From the NCBI GenBank assembly GCA_020832405.1, contig JAFIET010000029.1, positions 1 through 40,851 on the forward strand: DNA of 40,851 nt, written 5' to 3'. The number at the start of each line of letters is the position of its first letter. The first letter of the stretch is position 1. This document shows positions 21,831 to 37,125 of the stretch, one piece after another. The stretch comes from Balneolales bacterium (GTDB lineage Bacteria; Bacteroidota; Rhodothermia; Balneolales; Cyclonatronaceae). Position numbers and translations under genes: made by a program. Under the pieces are notes generated by a model. That model was given only the letters and a program-made list of their open reading frames with translations. It was not told where the DNA came from and searched no databases.

Positions 21831-22313
21831 ATGCTCCTTTCAAAAGCCTGTATCTACGGAATCCGTGCTTCGCTGTACATCGCGGCTGTTCGCCACGATG
21901 AGCGAAAATTCGTACCCATCCACATCGTCAGCGACAGGCTTGAACTGTCGTTTCATTTCCTTACCAAAATTCTGCAGCAGCTCACAACTGCGGGCCTGCT
22001 GGAGTCATACAAAGGGCCTAACGGCGGGGTTACCTTCAGCCGTGATGCAAAGGAAATAAAGATCATCGAAATCATTAAAGCGATCGATGGCGATAAGCTT
22101 TTTACGGAGTGTATTCTGGGGCTGCCGGGCTGCGGACACAACCGCCCCTGCCCGATTCATGAAAAATGGGGGCAGACCCGTGAAGGGCTGAAGATTCTGT
22201 TTGAAAACACCAGCCTCCATGAAATTGCAGATAAAGCCGCCCGCGAAAACCTGCGGCTGTCTGATAAGCTCACGATGGAAGAAATTCTGAAGGGCGGCAT
22301 CATAAGCAGCTGA
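21831..22313 (+). CDS. Rrf2-family transcriptional regulator with a possible Fe-S site
   Basis: This 160-residue Rrf2-family winged-helix regulator has ACIYGIRASLYIA, then LSFHFLTKILQQL (recognition region), GLLESYKGPNGG (wing) and IIEIIKAIDG. Three cysteines follow, C94, C101 and C107 (spacing C-x6-C-x5-C), in the place where IscR and NsrR hold a [2Fe-2S] or [4Fe-4S] cluster. It is therefore likely to sense iron-sulfur status, nitric oxide or redox stress. The gene is monocistronic and ends in a strong terminator facing the convergent AbgT-family transporter, so its own promoter lies in the 95 bases upstream. Its targets are not visible here. Confidence 0.88.
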   Translation: MLLSKACIYGIRASLYIAAVRHDERKFVPIHIVSDRLELSFHFLTKILQQLTTAGLLESYKGPNGGVTFSRDAKEIKIIEIIKAIDGDKLFTECILGLPGCGHNRPCPIHEKWGQTREGLKILFENTSLHEIADKAARENLRLSDKLTMEEILKGGIISS

Positions 22314-33367: not shown

Positions 33368-35197
33368 TCAGGAGGCCTCAGCTGCGGTACCGGCGGGCTC
33401 AAACATGCGGTCGAGCCTGCGGCGCTGATCGTAAACCGTTTCCGCCAGCGAATCGAGGTTTTCACCCTCGTAAGGCTTCTGTTGTGAGAGCAGGTAGCAG
33501 CTGTCCATACCTTTTTCGAGATTGGCTTTCATTTTCAGCAGTTTACGATAACCGGCTTTGTCGTCGCCGGTGAGGGCGAGCATGCGGCCGAGGTAATCGA
33601 CGTACTGCGTAATCTCTTTGGCAAACATGTGCGGGCGGTCAGCCGCTACGATGCTGTTGTCGTGCTGACCGCTGCGGCCATAAATGTGATCGACCATTTC
33701 ATCGAGGTTGTAGGTGCGCTTGAAATAAGCCAGGTTCGGACCCGGGCACACCGACTGCCGCCCGTGTGTTTCCGGCACAATGCCAAGGCGGATGAGCGCT
33801 GAGAAGCCCAGGTTGTTGCACAGGCAGTCTTTATCGAGCACCTGATCGATGAGCGCTTTTTTCGCAGTTTCATCGGCCTGCTGCTCCTTGATGGACTGAA
33901 TCTTGAGCAGTTGATACTGTGCCGAAGCCGTGCAGATCGGGTTTTCGGTGAATTCCGTGTTGTAGGCCAGGAACCCTTTCGGGCACTTGGAGCCGGGCTT
34001 GCCTTTTTCGATCTGTTCGCGGTTGTAGCGGCTTGAGCCGGTATTGCGCACGTTGTTGAACGGCACGCCAAGCGGGGAAACGTTGCTGAGGTAAAAATCT
34101 TCTTCAACGGCATCGCTCAGCAGGGTCATGGTTTCGGCATCCACGCAGGTAGCTTCGGGAACAAGCAGGAAAGGGCTGCCCCAGCCGGTGCCGTCAACGC
34201 CGTAGTGTTCGAGCAGGCGGCGCATTTCGCCGTTGGTGCCGATGCCGCCCTGTACCGTAATGGCCGGGGTGAGGTCGGCTTCGGTAAGCTCCGGCCACGC
34301 CATGTTATTTTCTGCGTAATAGGCTTGAATCATCGGGAGGAAGGTCTGTGCCAGTTCGCCCTTCTTTTCGGCAAACTCTTCAAGCACGGTCGGCAGCAGG
34401 ATGCCGTCAGATGCAAAGGCATGCCCCCCGCAGTTGATGCCCGATTCAATCCGGAACTCGGCTACTTCGATGCCTTTCTTGGCCAGAAACTTGCCCTGAA
34501 TAAGGGCGGAGCGGAAATCGCTCACTTTCAGGATCACGCGCTTTTTGGGCCGCGCGGCACTTGTACGGTAAAAGCTGCTGAAGGCCGGCAGGTAGCCGTA
34601 CAGGCGCGGGTTGAAACCCGCTGACAAAATAACGGAGCCATCAACCGGACTTTCGGCAAATCCGCGGAGTGCGGTGCTCGCATCGCTGTAATCAGATGGC
34701 AGGGGAAGGCCGTCTTCGCCGTTGCGCAGCACATCAACCTTCGACATAATGTTGACCTGAATTTCGCCCGGCACCATGCGTGCGGTGAGCTCTTCTTCAA
34801 GCAGCCCGCGCGTTGTGCTGTCGCTCATAAAATAGAGGTCCTTATAGGCTTTGCGCAGCGGATGCTCATTCGGGAGCAGTTCGAAGTAACGGTCCTTCTC
34901 AGAATCGGTGAACAAACGCTGCTGCTTAACGGCCTCAAATCTGTTCTGAACAATGGTATGCATCATCTCAAGAAAAGCCCGTACCCGTCGGCTGCGGCCG
35001 TCGGCAGCGGTGCGGCCGATATTCTGGTAAGGGAGCTGATAGAGGGTGCTGTAATGCTTGCGCACCTTCTCCAGCAGGAGATCATCCACAATGGATACAA
35101 CCGAGCTGATACCGAGGTGCGCAACCCGTATCGGGCTGTCGATGGTAAAGCCGATGCCCATTACGGGAATATGAAACTGGTGCAAATTTGCTTGCAT
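33368..35197 (-). CDS. Large cysteine-rich protein of unknown function, barrel-like
   Basis: This 609-residue cytoplasmic protein belongs to no family I can name. Residues 313-348 (ITVQGGIGTNGEM, then GTGWGSPFLLVPE) look like the phosphate-binding end of an FMN-binding TIM barrel such as nitronate monooxygenase or FabK. An earlier stretch, 252-260 (SGINCGGHA), recalls the glycine-rich GGH site of those enzymes. Eight cysteines occur, at 256, 351, 405, 422, 458, 460, 484 and 567, five of them clustered in 405-484 (SKCPKG, PICTAS, DCLCNN, VCPGPN), which suggests iron-sulfur binding. There is no signal peptide or membrane helix. It is divergently transcribed from a U32-family gene. A flavin/iron-sulfur oxidoreductase is my best guess, with low certainty. 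Confidence 0.7.
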   Translation of the reverse strand: MQANLHQFHIPVMGIGFTIDSPIRVAHLGISSVVSIVDDLLLEKVRKHYSTLYQLPYQNIGRTAADGRSRRVRAFLEMMHTIVQNRFEAVKQQRLFTDSEKDRYFELLPNEHPLRKAYKDLYFMSDSTTRGLLEEELTARMVPGEIQVNIMSKVDVLRNGEDGLPLPSDYSDASTALRGFAESPVDGSVILSAGFNPRLYGYLPAFSSFYRTSAARPKKRVILKVSDFRSALIQGKFLAKKGIEVAEFRIESGINCGGHAFASDGILLPTVLEEFAEKKGELAQTFLPMIQAYYAENNMAWPELTEADLTPAITVQGGIGTNGEMRRLLEHYGVDGTGWGSPFLLVPEATCVDAETMTLLSDAVEEDFYLSNVSPLGVPFNNVRNTGSSRYNREQIEKGKPGSKCPKGFLAYNTEFTENPICTASAQYQLLKIQSIKEQQADETAKKALIDQVLDKDCLCNNLGFSALIRLGIVPETHGRQSVCPGPNLAYFKRTYNLDEMVDHIYGRSGQHDNSIVAADRPHMFAKEITQYVDYLGRMLALTGDDKAGYRKLLKMKANLEKGMDSCYLLSQQKPYEGENLDSLAETVYDQRRRLDRMFEPAGTAAEAS

Positions 35198-36654: not shown

Positions 36655-36708
36655 GAAACGATGGCGCACAATGGGCAGCCCTGAACCCGGCTTCACGGTT
36701 TGTTCCGC

Positions 36709-36800
36709 TTTTTTTTATTTGGGGGAAACTCCGTGCACATCACGGTCTTTCCTGCCAGTTCAAAACTCACAAGCCTGCGGAAAACGCCTTGCTTTTTGGG
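36709..36800 (+). repeat. Dispersed intergenic repeat, copy D
   Basis: It begins with a T-run and GGGGGAAACTCCGTGCACAT, continues CACGGTCTTTCCTGCCAGT and TCACAAGCCTGCGG, and ends CCTTGCTTTTTGGG. It aligns with copies A, B and C over its whole length, with more substitutions in the second half. It lies about 55 bases after the U32 gene, in the same direction. Confidence 0.75.
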
Positions 36801-36894
36801 TTTTGGTGATCCCCGAAGTCATTTCTGTAAAAAAACACTGCACGCTTCCATCCTCCAAAAGCATCCCCAAAACCTAAGTCAGACTCAGTTTTCC

Positions 36895-37125
36895 GTGATC
36901 CGCATCTTTTTTCAGCGCAACAAATGCATCGGCTGCAATGCCTGCGTAGAGGCGGCCCCGAACCGCTGGCGGGTTTCCCATAAAGACGGCCGCTGCACCC
37001 TCGTTGAGGGCGAAGCCCGGCGCGGCGGACAGCTCTTCATCGCCCGCGTGGGCGAAGACGAGCGCGAAGCCAACGAGCAGGCCGCCCGGAACTGCCCGGC
37101 GGGCATCATCCGCATCGAAGGCTGA
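36895..37125 (+). CDS. Small 4Fe-4S ferredoxin
   Basis: This 76-residue ferredoxin carries electrons through one [4Fe-4S] cluster. The binding cysteines are in KCIGCNAC (residues 11, 14 and 17) and the distant NCPAG near the C-terminus. The pattern is like the single-cluster ferredoxins found with Bacteroidota oxidoreductases. The open frame extends upstream through repeat D, but a GTG at 36895 (IRIFFQRNKC) gives the normal length and is preferred. It lies downstream of the U32 gene, and may supply electrons to it or to the divergent 609-residue protein; this is inference. No second cysteine cluster is visible, and one extra cysteine lies in GRCTLV. Confidence 0.85.
   Translation: MIRIFFQRNKCIGCNACVEAAPNRWRVSHKDGRCTLVEGEARRGGQLFIARVGEDEREANEQAARNCPAGIIRIEG

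Follow-up and report, generated by a model that had tools for sequence, protein, structure and literature searches.

To our knowledge, the anaerobic synthesis of unsaturated fatty acids in bacteria that lack FabA is documented in only a few cases. Both PfaD and FabX act on acyl-ACP, and FabX requires O2 in vitro.

FabX, whose role in acyl-ACP metabolism is established, belongs to the nitronate monooxygenase (NMO) family and carries FMN together with a [4Fe-4S] cluster whose ligands are C300, C304, C308 and C320. Residues G22–I28 and Asn99 contact FMN, His182 is catalytic and the position of the cluster after the barrel has been proven structurally (PMC8626469). A second NMO-family protein, UfaA (NGO1024) of Neisseria gonorrhoeae, is reported to serve anaerobic unsaturated fatty acid synthesis with an electron acceptor that is unknown, and shares ~36% identity with a FabX from Bacteroidales (PMC11300592).

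The DNA analysed here (the window) is the whole 40,851-nucleotide stretch of a Balneolales contig, and it encodes a 609-residue protein of a widespread, unnamed bacterial family, most likely an enzyme with a flavin and an iron–sulfur cluster, distantly related to FabX. Our best explanation, to which we assign a probability of roughly 0.5, is an NMO-superfamily flavoenzyme, remotely related to FabX, that provides unsaturated fatty acids through dehydrogenation/isomerisation of acyl-ACP without O2.

The gene, its predicted fold and candidate cofactor sites

Positions 33368–35197 form a single open reading frame on the minus strand, comprising 609 codons plus a stop and opening with an ATG at 35197. 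The frame is kept over its full length in homologues at 48–88% identity, and is therefore regarded as real beyond chance. Its immediate neighbours are sucC downstream and a divergent U32 peptidase gene upstream. The peptidase gene is followed by a single-cluster ferredoxin (Fer4_15; window 36700–37125, plus strand), an adjacency kept in two genus mates (L129 and L131), and this ferredoxin is a possible electron partner of the window protein. Elsewhere in the window, an Rrf2 regulator is encoded at 21831–22313 on the plus strand, and a regulator of the same type adjoins the family gene in Balneolaceae and at one other locus (L128).

An AlphaFold2 model computed from a 69-sequence alignment (pLDDT 89.3, pTM 0.90) divides the protein into an N-terminal barrel and a cysteine-rich C-terminal domain, with the following features, all on the minus strand.

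33368..35197, minus strand: coding sequence of the 609-aa protein, stop included (open reading frame and full-length homologues)
34115..35197, minus strand: N-terminal TIM barrel, residues 1–361 (AlphaFold2 model, Foldseek)
Barrel strands, minus strand: residues 8–10, 32–35, 146–151, 188–192, 220–225, 245–251, 312–317 and 336–339 (AlphaFold2 model)
35150..35167, minus strand: strand-1 loop PVMGxG, residues 11–16 (conservation; aligned by eye with 'GVGIS' of FabX, outside the hhalign match)
34751..34753, minus strand: Asn149, invariant, equivalent to FabX Asn99, which contacts FMN (conservation, profile alignment)
34421..34432, minus strand: Cys-Gly-Gly-His 256–259, with His259 corresponding to the catalytic His182 of FabX (invariant; hhalign)
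34238..34249, minus strand: Gly-Gly-Ile-Gly 317–320, predicted FMN phosphate loop after strand 7 (model, conservation, profile)
34163..34177, minus strand: strand-8 loop Ser-Pro-Phe-Leu-Leu 341–345, aligned with 'T-R-F' of NMO proteins (model, conservation, profile)
33368..34114, minus strand: C-terminal cysteine-rich domain, residues 362–609 (model pLDDT 86.5; best Foldseek E 0.93)
33983..33985, minus strand: Cys405, predicted cluster ligand (invariant; aligns to FabX-like C319)
33932..33934, minus strand: Cys422, predicted cluster ligand (invariant; aligned with C332 of the FabX-like family)
33818..33826, minus strand: Cys458-Leu-Cys460, predicted cluster ligands (invariant; KDCLC aligned with KTCLC)
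33746..33748, minus strand: Cys484 in a CPGPN motif (invariant; a counterpart was looked for and none was found)

The original prediction had singled out a GGIG stretch, a GGH site and five clustered cysteines. All are present, as QGGIG at residues 316–320, CGGH at 256–259 and cysteines 405, 422, 458, 460 and 484 (C256, C351 and C567 being further cysteines), and in a 41-sequence alignment that covers both deep subfamilies of the family, and with them several phyla, C256, H259, G317, G318, G320, C405, C422, C458, C460 and C484 are invariant. The suggestion of a TIM barrel is borne out by the model, in which GGH comes after strand 6 and GGIG after strand 7 of an eight-stranded barrel, the placement known from NMO-family FMN enzymes, and the five cysteines lie within one C-terminal domain, the opposite of a barrel-less structure with scattered cysteines.

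Foldseek searches against the PDB returned FabX 9lt8 (E 2.1e-9), PfaD and FabX 9lt5 and 7e1q as top matches, followed at lower ranks by trans-acting enoyl reductases and then NMO; PA1024 was also a fold match. TM-scores normalised to FabX lay between 0.61 and 0.67 with a high rmsd, values that fit a shared core with large insertions. Searched alone, residues 362–609 had no match in the PDB (best E 0.93). The eight strands, the position of NMO-family structures as the most similar folds and the invariance of H259, G317, G318 and G320, in register with the FabX-like profile A5 introduced below, indicate that the modelled domain is very probably an NMO-type FMN barrel. The reading of the protein as an FMN enzyme gains support from its best solved match, FabX, an NMO-family FMN enzyme, with FMN itself as the predicted cofactor.

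Relationship to FabX and FabX-like proteins

Family models place the protein nowhere, in agreement with its initial description as having no assigned family. It matches no Pfam or NCBIfam model at E<=10, its 69 homologues show nothing consistent in either collection, and PF03060 (NMO) is absent among the 25 Pfam families listed for those homologues (E<=1). The family falls below the TIGR02814 (PfaD) cut-off, gives neither a cut-off score nor a profile match with TIGR03151 (FabK), and compares with FabK at E 0.053 over 49 columns, no meaningful match. PDB sequence searches with the window protein yielded nothing useful. No relative was detected in viral contigs or in phage and plasmid collections, no match appeared in a viral fold library and no paper on the family was found in open-licence full text. 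One genome holds a second, broken family copy (L147; G142:C1 near 4371173-4372459) beside an intact one.

A relationship emerged from comparison of three profiles, representing the window family (A4), long FabX-like proteins of Bacteroidota (A5) and true FabX proteins of Bacteroidota (A6). With hhalign, A4 matched A5 over 269 columns at E 1.3e-5. The score of 50.4 compares with no more than 23.3 in any of 60 column shuffles and with 25.1 when the profile was reversed. The alignment brings into register N149/N113, CGGH/AGGH, GGIG/GGIF, SPLGVPFNN/STTGYPMRM, C405/C319, C422/C332 and KDCLC/KTCLC. A5 in turn matched A6 at E 4.6e-42, and A6 matched solved FabX at E 8.8e-73; the direct comparison of A4 with A6 is borderline (E 0.0068 over 113 columns, score 29.9 versus shuffles up to 28.0). 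Between the window protein and FabX there was no phmmer match and thus no significant full-length similarity, and the FabX ligand spacing CX3CX3CX7-11C after the barrel is absent from the family. Together, the A4–A5 match and the comparisons with FabX and FabK identify a distant superfamily member that lies nearest the FabX-like proteins and is not FabX by membership. As judged from profiles and model, the window protein belongs to a new branch within the NMO superfamily that has a predicted cluster domain of its own, a family new within a known superfamily, in which the arrangement of candidate cluster ligands is new and the C-terminal domain is unmatched.

The FabX-like group itself (A2 and A5; L170–L177, L195 and L196; Bacteroidota) carries clustered C319, C332, C358, C360, C368 and C371 without the FabX ligand motif, occurs in nearly all sampled genomes of family f26 and also looks uncharacterised.

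The cysteines could instead bind zinc or form disulfides, leaving a flavoenzyme without an iron–sulfur cluster. Such a protein would accord with a ligand spacing unlike that of FabX, with the lack of any match between the window protein and Fer4-type Pfam models and with a C-terminal domain that has no solved counterpart, but four of the five cysteines align with cysteines of the FabX-like family, and the true FabX cluster occupies the same post-barrel position. Disulfides are, moreover, unlikely because the N-terminus opens directly with the barrel and a signal peptide is absent by eye. We regard zinc or disulfides as quite improbable and consider it likely that the window protein carries an iron–sulfur cluster, as the cysteines had originally suggested.

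Genomic context and distribution

In a Desulfobacterales clade, the family gene lies in a fab operon in the order acyl-CoA dehydrogenase, fabG, acpP, fabF, fabH, family gene and PlsC-like acyltransferase. The full operon is confined to this clade alone, with parts of it at just 3 of 16 further loci; the idea that it is a general feature of the family was accordingly discarded. No polyunsaturated fatty acid (PUFA) or polyketide synthase was seen adjoining the family gene. Four Desulfobacterales bearers (G426:C50, G429:C25, G428:C118 and G433:C94) encode very long open reading frames, each containing several hot-dog domains of the FabA-like type; these are probably synthases of the PUFA or polyketide type and have no link to the family gene.

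Other lineages show a different setting. Balneolaceae loci combine the family gene with RIC, hemN, CtaA and Rrf2, one of them also with nosD, nosL and an ABC transporter, and overall the gene adjoins RIC, hemN, nosDFY or nirK in this group. Several Balneolaceae loci also place it next to a 422-aa membrane-like protein (L135:4665-5933, minus strand) that has no Pfam match at 1e-6 and is NnrS-like by eye. In Bacteroidia, the gene occurs beside a cbb3 oxidase and hemN (L118), beside nirK (L126 and L128) and immediately after a nosF-nosY-type pair (L236 and L237). Markers of anaerobic respiration were present at 8 of 41 Bacteroidia loci versus 1 of 19 control stretches, a neighbourhood signal for an anaerobic link that is suggestive only. 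An upstream enrichment of FNR boxes was rejected, the 7 one-mismatch sites (2.6 expected) including several inside neighbouring coding sequences.

The recurrence of denitrification and iron–sulfur repair genes, rather than lipid genes, in Balneolaceae and Bacteroidia would suit an NMO-type redox enzyme outside fatty acid synthesis, be it a quinone reductase, a thioester reductase of another pathway or a component of the anaerobic or nitrosative stress response, and NMO and PA1024 are also among the fold matches. Such a role is nevertheless somewhat unlikely, given the fab operon clade, the mutual exclusion with FabX-like genes described below and the acyl-ACP substrates of all its nearest relatives by profile and by fold.

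The phylogenetic spread is wide. Among 394 genomes sampled from the window's phylum, 141 (about a third) carry the family, which was also found in Thermodesulfobacteriota, Fidelibacterota, Ignavibacteriota and Nitrospirota. Full-length homologues occur in 49/60 close relatives, at 79 loci of other species and, within the class of a Desulfobacterales bearer, in 19 of 107 genomes. The co-occurrence counts that follow are raw and ignore shared ancestry. Oxygen-independent hemN is present in 120/141 bearers versus 149/253 non-bearers (Fisher 4e-8, kinship ignored), and with FabX-bearing genomes left out the comparison becomes 120/141 versus 67/165 (4e-16, kinship ignored). Within family f4, the gene is present in 28 of 28 hemN-positive genomes versus 6 of 17 hemN-negative ones.

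The 141 bearers and the 88 genomes with FabX-like genes show zero overlap among the 394. The two strongest FabX-like matches in Desulfobacterales bearers were set aside as FabK-type proteins without the cluster domain. The FabA cut-off was passed in none of 118 genomes, nor in any of 14 bearers from several phyla. Among 41 relatives, all 19 genomes without a fatty acid desaturase carry the gene and all six without the gene have a desaturase (chance ~0.017, hypergeometric, kinship ignored). This complementarity holds in the 41 relatives and breaks down across the phylum: 53 of 394 genomes have no family gene, no FabX-like gene and no PF00487 desaturase. A universal rule was therefore dismissed. 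A search of the window's own genome found FabK and a FabZ-like match, and no FabA, FabX-like gene or desaturase.

These patterns bear on the chief rival reading, a cluster-containing enoyl-ACP (or enoyl-CoA) reductase that works in the saturating direction with ferredoxin or NAD(P)H electrons, like PfaD, the trans-acting enoyl reductases or FabK. PfaD and the trans-acting enoyl reductases rank close to it in fold, the fab operon suits a reductase equally well and a ferredoxin lies near the gene in the window and in the two genus mates. However, canonical FabK is already present in the same genome and in at least some Desulfobacterales bearers, so that a second housekeeping reductase would be superfluous; across genomes the family replaces FabX-like genes and not FabK; and neither the PfaD nor the FabK model matches it. 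We therefore consider a saturating reductase unlikely.

Proposed reaction and comparison with known systems

The fab operon clade, the co-occurrence with hemN, the exclusion of FabX-like genes, the absence of FabA and the 19/19 desaturase-free relatives lead us to favour a role in acyl-ACP chemistry, with the O2-independent synthesis of unsaturated fatty acids as the most likely one. Action on acyl-ACP or acyl-CoA is rather likely, and for that specific synthesis the odds fall slightly short of even. Dehydrogenation/isomerisation as in FabX, with a non-O2 acceptor, is preferred, since the family goes along with anaerobic traits and FabX-like genes are missing from every bearer genome.

In the proposed mechanism, FMN would be held in the barrel, and C405, C422, C458 and C460 would hold a [4Fe-4S] cluster near enough for the passage of single electrons. 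His259 would abstract the alpha-carbon proton from a medium-chain acyl-ACP, with FMN accepting the hydride. The trans-2-enoyl product would be converted to a cis-3-enoyl form and re-enter FAS II, giving rise to unsaturated fatty acids. Most tentatively, the cluster may pass the electrons on to a non-O2 carrier, which would permit oxygen-free working; the direction of the reaction and the electron acceptor are the least certain parts of the proposal.

The family is strongly conserved, occurs in ~1/3 of the sampled genomes of its phylum and has no Pfam or NCBIfam entry, and its predicted C-terminal cluster domain is without counterpart among solved structures. It offers a concrete candidate for oxygen-free unsaturated fatty acid synthesis in FabA-less bacteria, and it is tentatively put forward as the founder of a new enzyme family with this activity in bacteria that lack both FabA and FabX. 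If this reading is true, the enzyme may let bacteria build unsaturated membrane fats without oxygen.

Among known systems, FabK of the same genome (L106) has the superfamily fold in common with the window protein but lacks a cluster domain and measures 315 aa, in keeping with the early remark that 609 aa is well above FabK. PfaD and the trans-acting enoyl reductases (6lkc, 4yx6, 4z9r and 4cw5) resemble the window protein in length and barrel and are close fold matches, whereas the family has no TIGR02814 match and its cysteine set is new. The long FabX-like proteins (A5) share the colinear 269-column match and four cysteines, and differ in being ~420 aa long, in lying clearly inside Pfam NMO while the window family lies outside, and in having their own pair C368 and C371.

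The best fold match, Helicobacter pylori FabX (7e1q, 9lt5 and 9lt8), shares the NMO-type barrel, a His after strand 6, a GG phosphate loop and a cysteine-rich domain after the barrel. At 609 aa versus 363 aa, the window protein differs from it in insertions in the barrel half, a long helical C-terminus, an extra invariant Cys256 beside the predicted catalytic His and candidate ligands arranged as C405-X16-C422-X35-C458-X-C460 instead of CX3CX3CX11C. UfaA shares pairwise identity with a Bacteroidales FabX, in contrast to the window protein with its lack of detectable pairwise FabX similarity, and it serves as the role model for the proposed anaerobic function.
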